Shown here piece after piece: positions 1,421-41,706 of a stretch of 64,000 bases of DNA. Origin of the DNA: Clostridia bacterium (GTDB lineage: Bacteria > Bacillota > Clostridia > Christensenellales > Aristaeellaceae). Below the pieces are notes generated by a model, which saw only the letters and a list, made by a program, of their open reading frames with translations, was not told the DNA's origin and did no database searches. Numbering within the stretch: the stretch's first letter is position 1; the number at the start of each line of letters is the position of its first letter. The stretch is taken from positions 1 through 64,000 of the forward strand of contig JAFVXE010000020.1 of NCBI GenBank assembly GCA_017501255.1. The letters are read 5' to 3'. The translations under genes were made by a program, and so were the position numbers.

Positions 1421-1511
1421 TGGCGGAGAGTTAGGGATTTGAACCCTAGTTACGCTATCAACGTAAACACGATTTCCAGTCGTGCGCCTTCGACCACTCA
1501 GCCAACTCTCC
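1421..1511 (-). tRNA. tRNA-Ser (anticodon GGA)
   Basis: A 91-base class II tRNA with encoded CCA. The acceptor arm GGAGAGTT pairs with AACTCTCC, followed by discriminator G and CCA. The anticodon loop CTGGAAA gives anticodon GGA, which reads UCC/UCU serine codons. The long variable arm and the GGTTCAAATCC T-arm are typical for tRNA-Ser. Confidence 0.96.
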
Positions 1512-2461: not shown

Positions 2462-2538
2462 GCGCCCGTAGCTCAGTTGGATAGAGTGTCAGACTCCGAC
2501 TCTGAAGGTCATGCGTTCGAATCGCACCGGGCGTACCA
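2462..2538 (+). tRNA. tRNA-Arg (anticodon CCG)
   Basis: A 77-base tRNA with encoded CCA. The acceptor GCGCCCG pairs with CGGGCGT (one G-U pair). The D-arm GCTCAGTTGGATAGAGT and T-loop GTTCGAATC are canonical. The anticodon stem-loop TCAGA-CTCCGAC-TCTGA gives anticodon CCG (arginine CGG). Confidence 0.96.
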
Positions 2539-5609: not shown

Positions 5610-7337
5610 ATGCGAACTCTGCTCCCCTACATGAAACCATTCCGCAAGGAATGCGTGATCGCACCGCTGTTCAAGCTGCTGGAAGCGCTTCTGGAACTGT
5701 TTGTGCCGCTGATGATGGCAGCCATCATTGACAAGGGTATTCTGGCTGAAAATGCACCCTATGTGCTCCGGATGGGTCTGGGGTTGGTGGGCCTTGGCCT
5801 GCTGGGATTCGGTTGCTCTGTGACCGCCCAGTTCTTTGCAGCCAAAGCTGCCGTTGGCTTTACCGCAAAGGTGAAGTCCGTGCTGTTTGCCCACATTCAG
5901 AAACTCTCCCATACGGAGCTGGATCAGATTGGCACCCCTACGCTGATCAACCGCATGACCACCGATATGAATCAGGTGCAGACCGGCGTGAACATGACGC
6001 TGCGCCTGCTGTTGCGCTCCCCCTTCGTGGTACTGGGCGCGACCATCATGGCTTTCACGGTGGATGCCAAAACCGCTTTGATCTTTCTGGCTCTGCTGCC
6101 CCTTCTGACCCTTGTGGTAGCAGGCATCATGGCGCTGACGCTGCCCCGGCACAAGCAGGTGCAGGGCCAGCTAGACAATGTGCTTTTGCGCACCCGTGAA
6201 AACCTGACCGGCGTGCGTGTGATCCGGGCCTTCAACAAGCAGGAAAGCGAAGAAGCAGCCTATAGCGACGAGACGGGTCTGCTGTTCAGCCTGCAGCAGG
6301 GTGTTGGCCGTCTGTCCTCCCTGATGAACCCGCTGACCTATGTGCTTGTAAACGGTGCGCTGATCGTGCTTTTGTGGAGCGGCGCCTGGCAGGTGGAAGG
6401 CGGCATTCTGACCCAGGGTGCCGTGGTGGCGCTGGTGAATTATCTGTCCCAGATTCTGGTGGAGCTGATCAAGCTGGCCAATCTGATCATCACCATCACC
6501 AAAGCGCTGGCCAGTGCCGGACGTATCGAGACCATACTGGAGCAGGAATCCTCCATGAAGGATCCCGCCTCCCCCACCGCCGCCCCTGTTACCAGTGAAG
6601 AATGCGTCCGCTTTGACAATGTTTCCACCCGCTATGCAGGCGCTGGCGAGGAAAGCCTGACCGGCATCAGCTTTACTGCGCTCCGAGGCCAGACCATCGG
6701 CGTGATCGGCGGCACCGGCTCGGGCAAAAGTACGCTGGTGAACCTGATTCCCCGCTTCTACGATGCCAGCAGCGGCACCGTGCTGGTGGACGGTGTGGAT
6801 GTTCGCCAGCAGTCTCAGGAAAGTCTGCGGGACAAGGTGGCGGTAGTACCTCAGAAAGCCATGCTGTTCAAAGGTACCATCCGGGATAACCTGCGCTGGG
6901 GCAAGCAGGATGCCACCGATAAGGAACTCTGGCAGGCTCTGGAGATTGCTCAGGGTGCAGAAGTGGTGCGTGGCAAACCCGGCCAGCTGGATGAGATGAT
7001 CGAGCAGAACGGCCGCAACCTGTCCGGCGGACAGCGGCAGCGGCTGACCATCGTCCGGGCGCTTGTGCGCAACCCGGAGATCCTCATTCTGGATGACAGC
7101 GCCTCTGCGCTGGACTATGCCACCGATGCAGCCCTTCGCAAGGCGCTTCGGGAAATGGATACCTCGGCAACCGTATTCATCGTCTCCCAGCGTGCCAGCT
7201 CCATCCGCTTTGCCGATCAGATTCTGGTGCTGGATGACGGCGAACTGGCGGGCATCGGCACCCATGATGAACTGCTTGAGAACTGTTCCGTCTATCAGGA
7301 AATCTACTATTCTCAGTATCCAAAGGAGGCGGTCTGA
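5610..7337 (+). CDS. ABC exporter half-transporter with degenerate catalytic site (subunit A)
   Basis: A 575-residue type IV ABC exporter half: six transmembrane helices in residues 1-320, then a nucleotide-binding domain. The Walker A motif GGTGSGKST lies near residue 368 and the signature LSGGQRQR near 471 is canonical. Walker B reads ILILDDSASALD, so aspartate replaces the catalytic glutamate. This is the known mark of one subunit of heterodimeric exporters such as TM287/288 and BmrCD. RBS AAGGAG is present. The stop overlaps the start of the partner gene by one base, so the two are co-translated. The substrate is unknown; drugs or peptides are typical of the class. Confidence 0.92.
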   Translation: MRTLLPYMKPFRKECVIAPLFKLLEALLELFVPLMMAAIIDKGILAENAPYVLRMGLGLVGLGLLGFGCSVTAQFFAAKAAVGFTAKVKSVLFAHIQKLSHTELDQIGTPTLINRMTTDMNQVQTGVNMTLRLLLRSPFVVLGATIMAFTVDAKTALIFLALLPLLTLVVAGIMALTLPRHKQVQGQLDNVLLRTRENLTGVRVIRAFNKQESEEAAYSDETGLLFSLQQGVGRLSSLMNPLTYVLVNGALIVLLWSGAWQVEGGILTQGAVVALVNYLSQILVELIKLANLIITITKALASAGRIETILEQESSMKDPASPTAAPVTSEECVRFDNVSTRYAGAGEESLTGISFTALRGQTIGVIGGTGSGKSTLVNLIPRFYDASSGTVLVDGVDVRQQSQESLRDKVAVVPQKAMLFKGTIRDNLRWGKQDATDKELWQALEIAQGAEVVRGKPGQLDEMIEQNGRNLSGGQRQRLTIVRALVRNPEILILDDSASALDYATDAALRKALREMDTSATVFIVSQRASSIRFADQILVLDDGELAGIGTHDELLENCSVYQEIYYSQYPKEAV

Positions 7338-34079: not shown

Positions 34080-34117
34080 GAATGGGATTTTCATCCATAC
34101 ATGAAAGGAATGATCGC

Positions 34118-34969
34118 ATGAGCATTCTGGAAGGCGCTCTGCTTGGTCTCCTGCAAGGCCTCGCTGAATTTCTCCCCATTTCCTCCAGCGGTCACCTGAA
34201 TCTGTTTCAGGCGTTGCTGAATACCCAGCTGGACAATCAATTGCTGTTCAACATTCTTCTGCACGTAGGCACGCTGGTTGCCGTTGCCGTGGTTTTCTGG
34301 AAGGATTGGCTGGATATGCTCCTCCACCCCATCAAAAACCGTACGCTGCTGCTTTTGTTCATTGCCTCTCTGCCTGCGCTGGTGGCCAAGATCATCTTTG
34401 ACAAGCCGCTGGATTATGCTGAGACCCACAACACCCTGCTGGGCATCTGCTTCCTGATTACTGCGCTGATGCTGGTACTCACCCAGCGTTTTTCCCGCCG
34501 TCAGGAAGAAGCCGGCATCGCCAAGGAAAAGGTTGGCTTTGTGGAAGCCATTGTGATGGGCTGCCTGCAGGCTGTTGGTATGCTGCCCGGTATCAGCCGC
34601 AGCGGTTCCACCATCTTCGGCGGCGTATGCGCCCGTGTAAACCGGGAAGCCGCTGCCAAGTTCAGCTTCATGATGAGCGCCCCTGCCATTGTGGGCGGTC
34701 TGTTGGTGGAAGGCAAGGATGCTCTGGAAGCCGGTATTTCTTTTGGCAACGACCTGCCCGCCATCATCGTGGGTATGGTGGTGGCCGCCATTGTCGGTTA
34801 CCTGTCCATCCGCTTCTTCCTGAAAGTGATCGCCAACGCCACCCTGAACGGCTTTGCGCTGTATGTGGCTGTTGTGGGCGTGGTTGTGATCATCCTGCAG
34901 ATCATGGGCGTGATCACGGATCCTCCTGCCGCCACCGCCGCTCTGACACTCGTCCGTTCCCTGTGTTGA
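34118..34969 (+). CDS. uppP: Undecaprenyl-diphosphatase
   Basis: A 283-residue integral membrane enzyme of the UppP/BacA family that recycles the lipid carrier undecaprenyl diphosphate to the monophosphate for wall synthesis; overproduction gives bacitracin tolerance. The catalytic signatures are intact: LLQGLAEFLPISSSGHL near residue 10 and PGISRSGSTIFGG near 150. About eight helices. The ATG at 34118 follows AAAGGA by eight bases; a longer start at 34082 lies upstream of it. Its terminator is the hairpin at 34988-35016, where a hairpin-rich element is inserted. Confidence 0.95.
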   Translation: MSILEGALLGLLQGLAEFLPISSSGHLNLFQALLNTQLDNQLLFNILLHVGTLVAVAVVFWKDWLDMLLHPIKNRTLLLLFIASLPALVAKIIFDKPLDYAETHNTLLGICFLITALMLVLTQRFSRRQEEAGIAKEKVGFVEAIVMGCLQAVGMLPGISRSGSTIFGGVCARVNREAAAKFSFMMSAPAIVGGLLVEGKDALEAGISFGNDLPAIIVGMVVAAIVGYLSIRFFLKVIANATLNGFALYVAVVGVVVIILQIMGVITDPPAATAALTLVRSLC

Positions 34970-34987
34970 CATCTATAGAATAAACAA

Positions 34988-35016
34988 AAACGCATCTGCT
35001 GAAACCGGCAGGTGCG
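34988..35016. terminator. Terminator hairpin, first copy of a 29-bp direct repeat
   Basis: GCATCTGC / GCAGGTGC stem with an eight-base loop. On the minus strand it is followed by TTTTT, so it suits termination of vanW transcripts. The same 29 bases recur at 35227-35255. Confidence 0.75.
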
Positions 35017-35226
35017 TTTCAGACAGTCAAAGAACCCCGGGTGGTATTGGAGGGGCGCACCCCTCCAATTGCCAATCCGAAACCAGCGGCGTGTACGGTG
35101 GTTTCGGAACCCTTGCGTAGCAAGGGATTCCTATCGCCGTTTGCCGCCCGGCGAGCCGTAGGCTCGTAGGCAAACGGTGCAAGCCTCGTCGAAAAAATCG
35201 CCACAGGCGAGTTTTTCGATGATCCG
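35017..35226. repeat. Hairpin-rich inserted element between two terminator copies
   Basis: This 210-base stretch codes for nothing. It holds five hairpins in series: a perfect 10-bp stem (35046-35055 with 35060-35069, loop CGCA); a 9-bp stem CCGAAACCA (35077-35085 with 35099-35107); CCCTTGC-gta-GCAAGGG (35110-35126); a two-storey stem CCGTTTGCC / GGCAAACGG (35137-35177) with an inner CGAGCC-gta-GGCTCG; and TCGAAAAA / TTTTTCGA (35189-35219) with an inner TCGCC-aca-GGCGA. The flanking 29-bp direct repeat looks like a duplicated target. A non-autonomous palindromic mobile element or a structured RNA would both fit. Confidence 0.6.
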
Positions 35227-35260
35227 AAACGCATCTGCTGAAACCGGCAGGTGCGCTTTT
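35227..35260. terminator. Terminator hairpin, second copy of the 29-bp direct repeat
   Basis: Same GCATCTGC / GCAGGTGC stem as at 34988-35016, here followed by CTTTTTT on the plus strand. The A-rich left side is kept by the first copy and the T-rich right side by this one, as if one bidirectional terminator had been split. Confidence 0.75.
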
Positions 35261-35263
35261 TTG

Positions 35264-37138
35264 TCAATTATATTCCACAACCTGCTGGTATGCGTTGTAG
35301 GTGCTGGTATGCAGCAGTTCCCGCTTCACTTCCTGCCCATTCTGATACCACACCTTATAGGTTTCCACCACATAACCGGTACGGGATTTCACCTTGGTCT
35401 GGCTGGTACCGAAGGGCAATTCCGGATTCTGCACATACTTGACCTCAATACTGGGTTCGATGGTACGGATCACCTTGGATTCCAGATCAATGGTCATGCC
35501 GTCCTTCAGCGCAAGACCCCAAATCTCCGCCGACATCTTGCGGTCATTGTAATAGGTGATGATGAAGATGGGCGCTTCGGTATTGTTCTTGAACTTGAAA
35601 TCCAGATTAGGCCAGTTGACCGTTGCATCCTCGCCGCGATCCACATAGGTGCTGGGCCACGCATGAGGACTGCGCTCCACGATCTCCAGATCTGCTCTGG
35701 CAGCTGCATTGAACAGTGTGGAGGATACCTGACAGATACCGCCGCCCACTTCTTCAATGCTTTGTCCGGCGGCAATAGCACCGGCGGACTTGTAGCCCTT
35801 GTCTGTAGTGCGCTCCCCGGTAGCCTTATTGAAGCTGAACACCTCGCCTGGCAGAAGCGCTGTGCCGTTGATCGCCTGACAGGCCAGGCTGATGTTGGTA
35901 TTGCGGTTGCTTTCGCTGGTGGTATCCGTGGTATAGGCGGCGATCAGGGAGAAATCCGAAGTCAGATCATCTTTGGTGATGGAAGCAGGTGTCAAAGCCA
36001 GATTGGTGGTGACGATAGCACCCTGCTGCCCCGCATCCAGCGCAGCAATAATACGCTCATACAGCATTTCGCTGTCCACCTGAATGCCCGGATAATCATC
36101 CGAGAAAGAGAAGGTTCTGGTTTTGTAATCAAAGGACAAAATCTGTGCGTTGATCGGATCACGATTCACATATGCGGTGATCTCATTGACGATTTTCCGA
36201 ACAGCCTCTGTATCATAAGTAACATCCGTGGTCAGATTGATGCCGTTCATCCGCAGATCCATCAACTGATTCACCCGCTGACGGAACGGCGTCTGCTGAG
36301 TAATCTGAATATCAATGGTATTGGTGCGCCCGATGGCGTAGGCACGCTCCAGCACATTGCCCAGATTCCGTACCGCAGGCACATTGGTTTGATCCACCTG
36401 CCAGGTTTTATCGCCGATCGCAACTGTCACCGAATATGGCGTGGTGTTCACCTGCTGATTGGCAGCAGCGCTGCCGGAAAGCGCAGCCTTGGCTTCCTCC
36501 ATAGTCATATCGCCCACAGAGATTCCATCGATAAATACACCGGGATAAATCACATCTCTGGCGGCATAATCACGGTACTGCTGGAACATAGCTACTTTTT
36601 CCCGGTCGTAGGGCAGTAATTCGCCGTTGATAAAGGCAAAATTGTCAAAGTCCTTCCAGAAATACCCCGCCATCTGCGGCATCATCATCACGGCGATGAT
36701 GGACATGAACAAAAAACAGACCGTGATGATTCCCACGTACAGATAGGCATGCCAGCTCTTGTAGGGCTTCTTGCCGAAATATTGTCCGGCATTGTTCCCA
36801 GAAGAATTGTTCCCTCCGGTGCGCATCATCTGCCCGATCTCCCGCACCCGCTGTGTCAGATTGTTCCAAGAACCCTTTGCATCCGTTGTGCGCTGCATTG
36901 ACTGGGTCTGCCGCCTGTCTTGCTGGACTGGTCGACGGGCTGCAGGCAGCGGCTTTTGCCAGCGGTCCTCATCTTCATAAACAAAGGATTCTTCATAAGA
37001 TGCCTCCGGCGGAGGGATAATCAGCCGGTGCTGTGTTGCCTGAGACAAATCCGCCGGCATGGCAAACAAACCATTCTCGTTTTCATAGAATGGAATATTG
37101 GAATTCTTGTTTTCACGGTTCGAATTCCCGTTTGCCAT
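35264..37138 (-). CDS. VanW family protein with peptidoglycan-binding-like domains
   Basis: A 624-residue bitopic protein. An Asn-rich, polar cytoplasmic part of about 130 residues is followed by one transmembrane helix (YLYVGIITVCFLFMSIIAVMMM). Two PG_binding_4-like regions come next, with GVFIDGISVGDMTMEEAKAAL at the first. The VanW domain lies at residues 420-550 with GGGICQVSSTLFNAAARADL and ERSPHAWPSTYVDRGEDATV. VanW proteins accompany some vancomycin clusters but most, like this one, are chromosomal envelope proteins of unknown activity. The start at 37138 has GGGAGGGG five bases upstream. It follows rex by 19 bases, so the two are co-transcribed. Confidence 0.88.
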   Translation of the reverse strand: MANGNSNRENKNSNIPFYENENGLFAMPADLSQATQHRLIIPPPEASYEESFVYEDEDRWQKPLPAARRPVQQDRRQTQSMQRTTDAKGSWNNLTQRVREIGQMMRTGGNNSSGNNAGQYFGKKPYKSWHAYLYVGIITVCFLFMSIIAVMMMPQMAGYFWKDFDNFAFINGELLPYDREKVAMFQQYRDYAARDVIYPGVFIDGISVGDMTMEEAKAALSGSAAANQQVNTTPYSVTVAIGDKTWQVDQTNVPAVRNLGNVLERAYAIGRTNTIDIQITQQTPFRQRVNQLMDLRMNGINLTTDVTYDTEAVRKIVNEITAYVNRDPINAQILSFDYKTRTFSFSDDYPGIQVDSEMLYERIIAALDAGQQGAIVTTNLALTPASITKDDLTSDFSLIAAYTTDTTSESNRNTNISLACQAINGTALLPGEVFSFNKATGERTTDKGYKSAGAIAAGQSIEEVGGGICQVSSTLFNAAARADLEIVERSPHAWPSTYVDRGEDATVNWPNLDFKFKNNTEAPIFIITYYNDRKMSAEIWGLALKDGMTIDLESKVIRTIEPSIEVKYVQNPELPFGTSQTKVKSRTGYVVETYKVWYQNGQEVKRELLHTSTYNAYQQVVEYN

Positions 37139-37157
37139 GTTTTCCCCTCCCGGGTGG

Positions 37158-37787
37158 TTAGTCCTGCTGATGCAACATCCGGAAGCTGAGCACCTGCAAG
37201 CCTTCATCCAGATGCACATTGACCACAGCAGCATCGCTGCACAGCTTCAAATCGCAGGGAGCAAAATTCCAGAAGCCACGGATTCCATATTGGTACAGCT
37301 GATCCGTCAGCGCTTGCGCCGCTTCAGCAGGCACAGCCAAAACGGCGATATCCACAGGGTTCTCGGAAATAAAACGTTCCAGACTGGAAATATCCTGCAC
37401 GCTGAGGGCATCCACACGGCTGCCTACTTTGGCGGGGTTGCTGTCAAAAATAGCGACTGTTTCGAAGCCATTGGCAGGAAATGAATCAGCGCAGGCCACT
37501 GCATGACCGATGTTGCCAGCGCCCAGAATGATCATCTTGTGGGTACGATCGATGCCCAGAATCTGACCAATCCGTTCCCGAAGTTCCGGCACAGCATAAC
37601 CATAACCCTGCCGGCCAAAACCGCCGAAACAGTTAATATCCTGACGAATCTGAGATGCAGTCAGGCCCATACGCTCGCCCAGTCCCTGAGAGGAAATCTG
37701 CAATACGCCCTCTCTCTCCAGCTCCTTCAAATGCCGGTAGTAACCGGGCAAGCGTCTGATCACTGCATCCGATACATAGCCAGCCAT
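37158..37787 (-). CDS. rex: Redox-sensing repressor Rex
   Basis: A 209-residue regulator: an N-terminal winged helix (AVIRRLPGYYRHLKELEREG, GLTASQIRQDINCFGGFGRQGYGY) and a Rossmann domain with the NAD(H) motif GAGNIGHAVA near residue 90. Rex senses the NADH/NAD+ ratio and represses fermentation and respiration genes in Gram-positive bacteria. RBS GGAGGG is seven bases upstream. The promoter at 37856-37884 overlaps a Rex-like dyad, which points to autoregulation. The C-terminal swap helix is present (SDAAVVNVHLDEGLQVLSFRM). Confidence 0.96.
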   Translation of the reverse strand: MAGYVSDAVIRRLPGYYRHLKELEREGVLQISSQGLGERMGLTASQIRQDINCFGGFGRQGYGYAVPELRERIGQILGIDRTHKMIILGAGNIGHAVACADSFPANGFETVAIFDSNPAKVGSRVDALSVQDISSLERFISENPVDIAVLAVPAEAAQALTDQLYQYGIRGFWNFAPCDLKLCSDAAVVNVHLDEGLQVLSFRMLHQQD

Positions 37788-37987: not shown

Positions 37988-40009
37988 TTATTCAGCGGAT
38001 TCCTCAGCAGCAGCTTCGGCTTCCAGAGCAGCGCCCATGGCTTCGATATCCACAGCCACGACCTCGGCATCGTCCTCTTCAACGGGGGCGACTTCTTCGG
38101 TCACTTCGGGCTCCAGCAGAGCACGGATGCTCAGGCTGATGCGCTTGGCAGCGGGATCGATGCTCAGCACCTTCACCTGCACTTCGTCGCCGACGTTCAC
38201 AGCGTCTTCGACCTTATTGATGCGGGTGGTGGCGCACTGGCTGATGTGAACCAGACCGTCGATACCGGGCTCCAGCTCCACGAAGGCGCCGAAGGTGGTG
38301 ATGCGGACGACCTTACCGGTGACAACAGCGTCAGCGGGGTACTTTTCGGGAGCCACATCCCAGGGCTTGGGCTGCAGTTCCTTGATGCTCAGCTGGATGC
38401 GCTCGCGCTCACGGTCGATGGACTTGATCTTCACTTCCACTTCCTGATCGGGAGCAACAACCTCGGAAGGATGCTTCACATGGCTCCAGCTCAGGTCGGT
38501 CACGTGGATCAGGCCATCCACGCCGCCCAGGTCAACGAAGGCGCCGAAATCGGTCAGGCGGCGGACAGTGCCCTTGACCACTTCGCCGGCAACCAGCTTG
38601 TCCCAAGCTTCGGCCTTCTTGGCAGCGCTTTCTTCGCGGATCACAGCACGGCGGCTGGCCACAACGCGCTTCTTCTGCTCATCCAGTTCGATGATCTTCA
38701 GCTTCATATCCTGGCCCACGAACTCGTTGATGTTCTCAACGTAGCGATTGGCCAGCTGGGAAGCAGGCACGAAGGCACGGATGCCGTTGATGCTGCAGGT
38801 GAGGCCGCCCTTGACAACCTTTTCGCCCTTGGCTTCGACATACTCGCCGTTTTCGTACTTCTCGACAAGCTCGGCGAAGGCCTTGCGGTTCAGGATGTTG
38901 CGCTGGGACAGCAACACGTTGCCGTCGCCGTCATTCACCTTGACGACCTCCACTTCGATTTCGTCGCCCATGCCGACATCCTGGGTCACCAGATCCTCGC
39001 GCTTGATCAGTCCGTCAGACTTGTAGCCGATGTTGACGCACACTTCATCCTCAGTAACGAGCACGACGGTGCCGGTAACGGTCTGTCCGGGTCTGATTTT
39101 GACCAGAGTCGCTTCCACATCAGCCATAAAGCTGTTCTTTTCCGCCTCCTCGGTGGAAACCTGCTGGTTCAATTGTTCCTTGTCAGTCATACGTGTGACT
39201 ACCTCCTTAAGTAACCAGTCCGGCGTACTTGCACCGGCGGTCATTCCAATGGATTCCGAATGGATATTTGCAAAGCCCGGCGGGATGTCCGCCGCGCGCT
39301 CTACCATGAGGGTACGGCTGCAAATGCTTTTGCAGGTCTCGTACAGTTTGCGTGTATTGGCGCTGGTGCGTCCGCCCACCACCAGCATGGCGTCCACCTG
39401 ACCGCTGAGGCGGCGTGCCTCGGTCTGGCGAAGAACGGTGGCGGTGCAGATGGTGTCCTTGACGGTTAAGTCGCCAACACGGGTCTCCAGTGCCGAAAGG
39501 ATCTCCTCCCAGCGTTCATGGGGAAAGGTGGTCTGAGAAACCGCCAGCGCACGCTCCATTTGGGGCAGGGCCAGCGCTTCCTCGGGGGTGTACACCGTGT
39601 AAACGGCTCCCTGAGCGAAACCGATGGTACCGATCACTTCAGGATGATTCGCCTGCCCAACCAGCACCACCGGCGAACCATCGGCGCTGTACTGGGCCAC
39701 CACCTGATGAAGCCTCGCCACAAAGGGACAGGTCAAATCGATCACTTCATTGGCAGTCTGGCTGAGTTGATCATAAATCTGGGGTGAAATGCCGTGGCTA
39801 CGGATAATCACAGTTTTTCCCCGGGTTTCTTCCACATCATGAACGGCTACGATGCCGATGGATTCCATTCGTTCAATCACCTGCGGATTGTGCACCAATT
39901 CCCCGAAGGTAACAATGGTTTTTCCGCTGTCCGCCGCTTTCTGTGCTTCATCCACAGCACGGCGCACACCCATGCAGAAACCGGCATGACGGGCGATTTC
40001 GATTGGCAT
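37988..40009 (-). CDS. Fused IspH (HMBPP reductase) and ribosomal protein S1
   Basis: A 673-residue fusion. Residues 1-285 are IspH, the [4Fe-4S] enzyme that makes IPP and DMAPP in the last step of the MEP pathway. The cluster cysteines are visible in [17 protein letters not shown] and [17 protein letters not shown] and SHGISP also fit. From about residue 300 four S1 RNA-binding repeats follow, with ends such as [20 protein letters not shown] and [21 protein letters not shown], then an acidic tail. This fusion is known in Clostridia. RBS AAAGGA. It follows the cmk-plsC fusion gene by 146 bases. Confidence 0.96.
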
Positions 40010-41509: not shown

Positions 41510-41706
41510 AGCCTTGCTCAAGCCCCAAAGTGCCGCTGCACCCCATTTTTTCACCCGCTATGTAAAGCAGGCCGGTGCTCTACCGCCATTTTCTGCCGTC
41601 CCCTGGCACGGAATCGTGGGGGCATGGCATCCGATGAACGAACGCGAGCTCCGTTTTGTGAAATGTGGGTAAAAATGGGATACTGGCGCACACTTCAGGT
41701 AACCAT
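41482..41706 (-). ncRNA. Probable 6S RNA (ssrS-like)
   Basis: A roughly 225-base transcript is bounded by a consensus promoter (41713-41741) and an intrinsic terminator (TTCGGCT-gtt-AGCCGAA, then T7). Its halves fold into one rod. CCCATTTTT (complement of 41671-41679) pairs with AAAAATGGG (complement of 41541-41550), flanked by CTCA/TGAG, AAGTG/CACTT and ACCC/GGGT, with an open middle section. The tip is closed by TGCC..CCCC / GGGG..GGCA and a CACG-attc-CGTG hairpin. A rod with a central bubble of about this size is the hallmark of 6S RNA, which mimics an open promoter and binds sigma-70-type RNA polymerase. No protein reading frame fits. Confidence 0.6.

Follow-up and report, generated by a model that had tools for sequence, protein, structure and literature searches.

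A short folded element flanked by whole-hairpin duplications of terminators, and its probable mobilisation by an IS1182-family insertion sequence

IS1272 and TnSha1 of Staphylococcus, which belong to the IS1182 family, target inverted repeats, often the hairpins of terminators, without a consensus in the primary sequence (PMC4923244, PMC5678879). In the case of IS1272 the targeted hairpin is removed and no duplication of the target results (PMC4923244, PMC5678879), and a route by which the hairpin would be duplicated was drawn only as a hypothetical, unobserved pathway (b) when this deletion was explained (PMC5678879). For the family at large, ISfinder direct repeats of 2-60 bp are cited (PMC7335449), and some members are reported to target palindromes in work cited in PMC5678879; IS1182 elements are over-represented between convergent genes (PMC9208149). 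Small, non-coding, multi-copy, intergenic and folded sequences are described among bacterial MITEs and the BOX, RUP and SPRITE repeats (PMC10969869, PMC3049150).

The element analysed in this study shares with bacterial MITEs and the BOX, RUP and SPRITE repeats its small size, its non-coding nature, its presence in multiple copies, its intergenic position and its folding. None of these is known to duplicate a whole terminator, and RUP, a MITE of IS630 type, has TA as its target. Group IIC introns, which are retroelements with a ribozyme, integrate beside intrinsic terminators and do not duplicate them; insertion at intrinsic terminators is common to them and to our element, whereas here the terminator is duplicated and there are neither intron features nor an Rfam match. 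With IS1272 and TnSha1 our element shares hairpin targets and an IS1182-family DDE transposase, here as the putative mover, but here the whole hairpin is duplicated and the element is a non-coding derivative of 207 bp. With the IS1182 family it shares palindrome targets and direct repeats of variable length (2-60 bp in the family, 15-47 bp here). Hairpin targeting by IS1182 is already published for IS1272 and TnSha1, with deletion of the hairpin; duplication of the whole hairpin and a structured MITE of IS1182 type are apparently new, neither having been found in a partial survey of the literature outside the ISfinder entries.

Analysis of the window (the whole stretch of 64,000 nucleotides) revealed a terminator hairpin present twice, at a spacing of 239 bp, between an uppP-type and a vanW-type gene. 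The original prediction had recognised this duplication, with a repeat of 29 bp around an insert of 210 bp; the repeat is in fact three bases longer, 32 bp with one mismatch (97% identity), and the insert measures 207 bp. The left repeat reads AAACGCATCTGCTGAAACCGGCAGGTGCGTTT and the right repeat ends in ...GCGCTT. The A-tract CAAAAACGC lies only on the outer left and the T-tract GCGCTTTTTTG only on the outer right, as had been claimed. The features of the locus, in window positions, are listed below.

34082-34969, plus strand: uppP-type gene (name from the original prediction), whose 3' terminator is the insertion target and whose orthologues served for the empty sites
34988-35019, no strand: left-hand terminator hairpin of the target-site duplication, outer A-tract kept and only TTT left before the element; a single copy stands at the empty site of L031-L034
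35020-35226, plus strand: non-autonomous element (MITE) of 207 bp, starting with CAG and ending with CCG (consensus CTG), 240 bits to the family model
35020-35037, plus strand: left terminal inverted repeat CAGACAGTCAAAGAACCC (consensus CAGACTGTCRAAAAA), the consensus matching IS1182-type IS ends at 14/16
35043-35073, plus strand: internal hairpin I, compensatory changes in 5/12 pairs
35077-35107, plus strand: internal hairpin II, loop swapped for about 100 bp in a longer subfamily
35110-35126, plus strand: internal hairpin III (CCCTTGC/GCAAGGG), from pairing and covariation in the aligned copies
35135-35179, plus strand: internal hairpin IV, two-storey, from pairing and covariation in the aligned copies
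35188-35220, plus strand: internal hairpin V, two-storey, A/T-tract and GC stem, resembling a bidirectional terminator, a likeness also seen at the left end of the partner IS
35209-35226, minus strand: right terminal inverted repeat, decayed in the window copy, CGGATCATCGAAAAACTC (consensus CAGNTCGTCAAAAAAC), from the alignment of copies
35227-35258, no strand: right copy of the duplicated terminator hairpin, full T-tract kept
35264-37234, minus strand: vanW-type gene (name from the original prediction), an open reading frame convergent with uppP on the other side of the terminator

The five consecutive hairpins foreseen in the insert are present, and the whole plus-strand stretch folds at -153.1 kcal/mol, far better than shuffled sequences (z = -11.2, 0/200 as good). 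The claim that the insert holds no reading frame was nearly right: the minus strand has an 82-aa open frame starting with TTG (35019-35267), and an antisense frame of 480 aa has its start inside the insert, but neither looks conserved and coding is unlikely, since copies of the element differ by 1-bp indels. The Rfam matches in the window are a 6S RNA (RF00013, 65.2 bits, 41518-41704, minus strand) and two tRNA genes (1424-1511, minus strand; 2462-2535, plus strand), and the body of the element matches no Rfam family above the gathering score. A 673-aa open frame further along the window (37988-40009, minus strand) presumably represents a product resembling an IspH-ribosomal S1 fusion.

Comparison of the element by BLAST with its own genome (2.89 Mb), that of an uncultured Clostridia bacterium of gut type, revealed 57 matching pieces. 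With 33 full copies as the basis of a covariance model, 45 matches were obtained, which represent about 41 distinct places after removal of opposite-strand overlaps. BLAST found the element in 11 of the 16 other genomes of the genus. A search for further copies and for a single terminator at this locus in relatives had been named beforehand as the test that could refute a mobile element, and its outcome, with these copies and the single-terminator sites presented below, supports the proposal of a non-autonomous mobile element that targets terminators. Being short (207 bp), devoid of a transposase gene and dispersed in many copies, the element has the make-up of a MITE. In a longer subfamily of about 300 bp the loop of hairpin II has given way to an additional module, rich in GC and about 100 bp long (in the own genome L013, L014, L018, L022, L023 and L026). 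The genomes are fragmented MAGs in which many contigs terminate within the element; in the own assembly around ten contigs stop inside a member of the longer subfamily. The MITE itself had no match in the plasmid and phage collections.

Alignment of the 33 copies showed that 98.7% of cells pair and that 14 of the 58 base pairs have changed on both sides. The covariation score is 0.121 as against 0.065 in shuffles, none of 500 shuffles scored as high, and slid partners give at most four such pairs. In the G008 copies several pairs of hairpin II are exchanged together (AAACCA/TGGTTT to AAGCTGA/TCAGCTT). The strong covariation of the five internal hairpins in these aligned copies shows that the folding of the body is maintained. 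Selection could act on it as RNA or as single-stranded DNA, or imperfect palindromes could be corrected by template switching; since the latter can also yield covariation, covariation alone is not proof of an RNA function. The suggestion that the insert might be a large structured RNA is borne out as far as the strong covariation goes and not as regards an Rfam match, and it does not exclude a mobile element. In its exclusive form this explanation holds that a structured RNA, regulatory or a 3' UTR element, spread by recombination between terminators without a transposase. The five hairpins and their 14 covarying pairs speak for it; the precise CAG...CTG ends matching those of IS1182, the duplication of the whole target hairpin, the fact that transposase-bearing IS1182 copies behave identically and the lack of an Rfam match speak against it, and we consider it very improbable. 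The conserved, covarying fold raises the question whether the elements act in the 3' UTRs of the genes that precede them.

The flanking repeats are no product of chance. Among 62 two-ended copies with at least 60 bp of flank, parsed from the own genome and its congeners, 45 have a direct repeat abutting the element (within 6 bp); when the left flank of one site was paired with the right flank of another, such a repeat appeared in 3 of 3782 cases. A clear duplication was not seen in the other 17 of these 62. The duplications are 15-47 bp long (median 28) and differ in sequence at each site. The duplicated segments have a median fold energy of -18.9 kcal/mol as compared with -4.95 for nearby controls of the same length, only one of 360 controls is as stable, and in 43 of the 45 the outermost base pair encloses 70% of the repeat or more. 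By these measures the repeat is nearly always a hairpin, and usually the terminator itself. The presumed cutting position coincides with the A/T-rich foot of the palindrome or is a few bases further in: the two feet are at most 4 nt from the ends of the repeat in 25/45, and in most of the others the pairing of the A- and T-tracts extends beyond the repeat. At L184 the duplication is a weak palindrome of 15 bp, AAGTATGGTATACTG, and not a strong terminator-like hairpin, which suggests that the cue for insertion is palindromy rather than terminator function. Orientation of the element relative to the A/T tracts and to the flanking genes followed no clear rule. A 29-bp duplication had been considered unusually long for a miniature element; this is explained by the duplicated unit being the whole target hairpin, so that its length varies with the hairpin, in line with the 2-60 bp recorded for IS1182 direct repeats (PMC7335449).

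At the uppP-vanW junction, where the original prediction had proposed to look for an empty site, a single terminator without any insert is present in four relatives (L031-L034), whose uppP is 80-91% identical. For other copies, the two flanks were joined with one repeat and the joined sequence was searched across the genus. Element-free orthologous sites were found in this way for L011 (G009, G006), L005 (G001, G009), L003 (G009) and L013 (G011, G009); four were aligned, and in G009 exactly one hairpin has been retained at the L011 site. These sites bear on the possibility that the element transposes by replacing hairpins as IS1272 does, the target hairpin being lost and the flanking hairpins being carried or later acquired by the element. 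IS1272, another member of the IS1182 family, does have terminator hairpins as its targets (PMC4923244, PMC5678879), but here a hairpin is kept on both sides in 45/62 copies, it differs between sites while being identical on the two sides of one site, and the empty site has the same hairpin once. Hence the flanking hairpin is duplicated target sequence. Hairpin replacement is refuted for most copies by the site-specific flanking repeats and the empty sites, and as a general account we give it a slighter chance still than a transposase-free RNA.

The likely mover of the MITE, on the evidence of ends and flanks, is an IS1182-family insertion sequence. Profile search detected no PF13751 transposase in the own genome (about 96% complete), and no PF01609 transposase was found there; only relics of IS ends occur, near C11:386 and C13:6701. 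An intact parent IS in the same genome is no general requirement for a MITE. PF13751 transposases are present in 6/17 genomes of the genus. The IS of G001 (about 1,493 bp) has the ends CAGTCTGTCAAAAAAGG and CAGACTGTCAAAGAAG / CAGACTGTCAAAGAAGCC and adjoins two different hairpins, one at each end. In G206, a genome of the same family, the copy of the IS is 1,493 bp long, has an intact 479-aa transposase and is 89% identical over the part compared; the transposase is assigned to IS1182 by NCBIfam NF033551 (415.1 bits against a cut-off of 270), with PF13751 and PF05598, and AAACCACCCGTCAAACGGGTGGTTT is duplicated on both sides of the IS.

The left end of the MITE consensus agrees with the left ends of the G206 and G001 ISs at 14/16 positions, and its right end agrees with these left ends at 13/16 (G206) and 12/16 (G001). 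The right end of the window copy matches IS ends at only 9/16, as compared with 12-14/16 for the family consensus. A terminator-like hairpin just inside one end is common to MITE and IS. The type of duplication, that of a whole hairpin, is the same for the MITE copies and for IS1182 copies with a transposase: hairpin duplications of about 20-32 bp surround five more ISs of the family (G062, G132, G169, G212, G185), and a hairpin is duplicated around the ISs of the Enterococcus faecalis plasmid pGTC3 (1,518 bp, AGCAAAGAGAACTTCTTTGCT) and of a Salinivibrio kushneri plasmid (1,593 bp, AGCGCCGACAACTCGGCGCT). Annotated plasmid copies of ISCfr1 showed no hairpin duplication, and two E. faecium ISEfa7-type copies had no matching left flank. 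A second IS1182 subgroup has the ends CAGACCGCCGACAAAGGGGCTG (L155, L156, L158, L161), and its copies in G005 and G007 (L155, L158) abut hairpins.

A partner other than IS1182, such as ISL3, is about as improbable as hairpin replacement. The closest transposase remnant beside a matching end in the own genome is an ISL3 relic at C13, where CAGACTGTCAAAGAAGCC directly adjoins the relic and a terminator. In this relic the decayed remains of an ISL3-family transposase (PF01610) are joined to an IS1182-type end (L135:1277-2240; G000:C13, about 5776-6739), a single case that looks mosaic because a canonical-looking ISL3 right end is located further out. Moreover, the same 24-bp end is found on the IS1182 copy in G001, and the ISL3 protein did not turn up in any other congener. 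The apparent match of terminal inverted repeats at C13 was set aside as belonging to a mosaic relic.

Returning to IS1182, we consider it highly probable that an IS1182-family IS with CAG...CTG ends supplies in trans the DDE transposase that moves the MITE, and that this transposase chooses palindromes by shape. In the mechanism proposed, the transposase would bind the CAG...CTG ends and the target palindrome, probably extruded as a hairpin or cruciform; the target, mostly an intrinsic-terminator hairpin, would be chosen by its shape and not by its sequence. The 3' ends of the element would be joined to the target exactly at the two 5' feet of the hairpin, or close to them, one on each strand. 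The staggered cut would then span the whole hairpin, so that gap repair would copy it and leave one full hairpin on each side. The left copy with its A-tract could serve as terminator for minus-strand transcripts and the right copy with its T-tract for plus-strand transcripts. Genes on both sides would thus keep a working terminator, and such insertions, probably neutral for termination and nearly harmless, may therefore have reached a high copy number.

The target duplications of most transposons are short and constant in length, whereas here the length (15-47 bp) tracks the target hairpin. This points to a DDE transposase able to recognise secondary structure in DNA and to cut at the two feet of such a structure. 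The hypothetical pathway of the IS1272 literature becomes directly testable in this system. Entry into terminators, with a complete terminator left on each side, is a possible route to about 40 copies in a small genome. A wider proposal is that a branch of IS1182 reads its target by folded shape and cuts at the feet of extruded hairpins, the hairpin setting the duplication length, and that selection in addition keeps its MITEs folded as RNA once they have entered a 3' UTR, where they would provide the host gene with a portable 3'-end structure; as a combination this is possible but doubtful.

The repeat by itself could also have arisen if one terminator had been duplicated locally, on either side of a hairpin sequence unrelated to it, but the dispersal of the element over about 41 places in the genome and the empty sites in relatives refute such a local duplication and leave it the least probable explanation.

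Outside the genus, matches to the element are few or weak. A covariance search across the order gave matches in 13 of 151 genomes at E <= 1e-5, and the more distant ones are treated as weak because a hairpin duplication was found at only 3 of the 23 distant loci examined. A clear half copy of the element (82.5 bits) lies directly downstream of uppP at a contig end in Candidatus Limiplasma stercoravium (L041). Distant relatives of the element lie directly downstream of uppP in two other lineages (L040:3893-4057 and L041:3799-3934), which suggests that the uppP terminator has been hit more than once.
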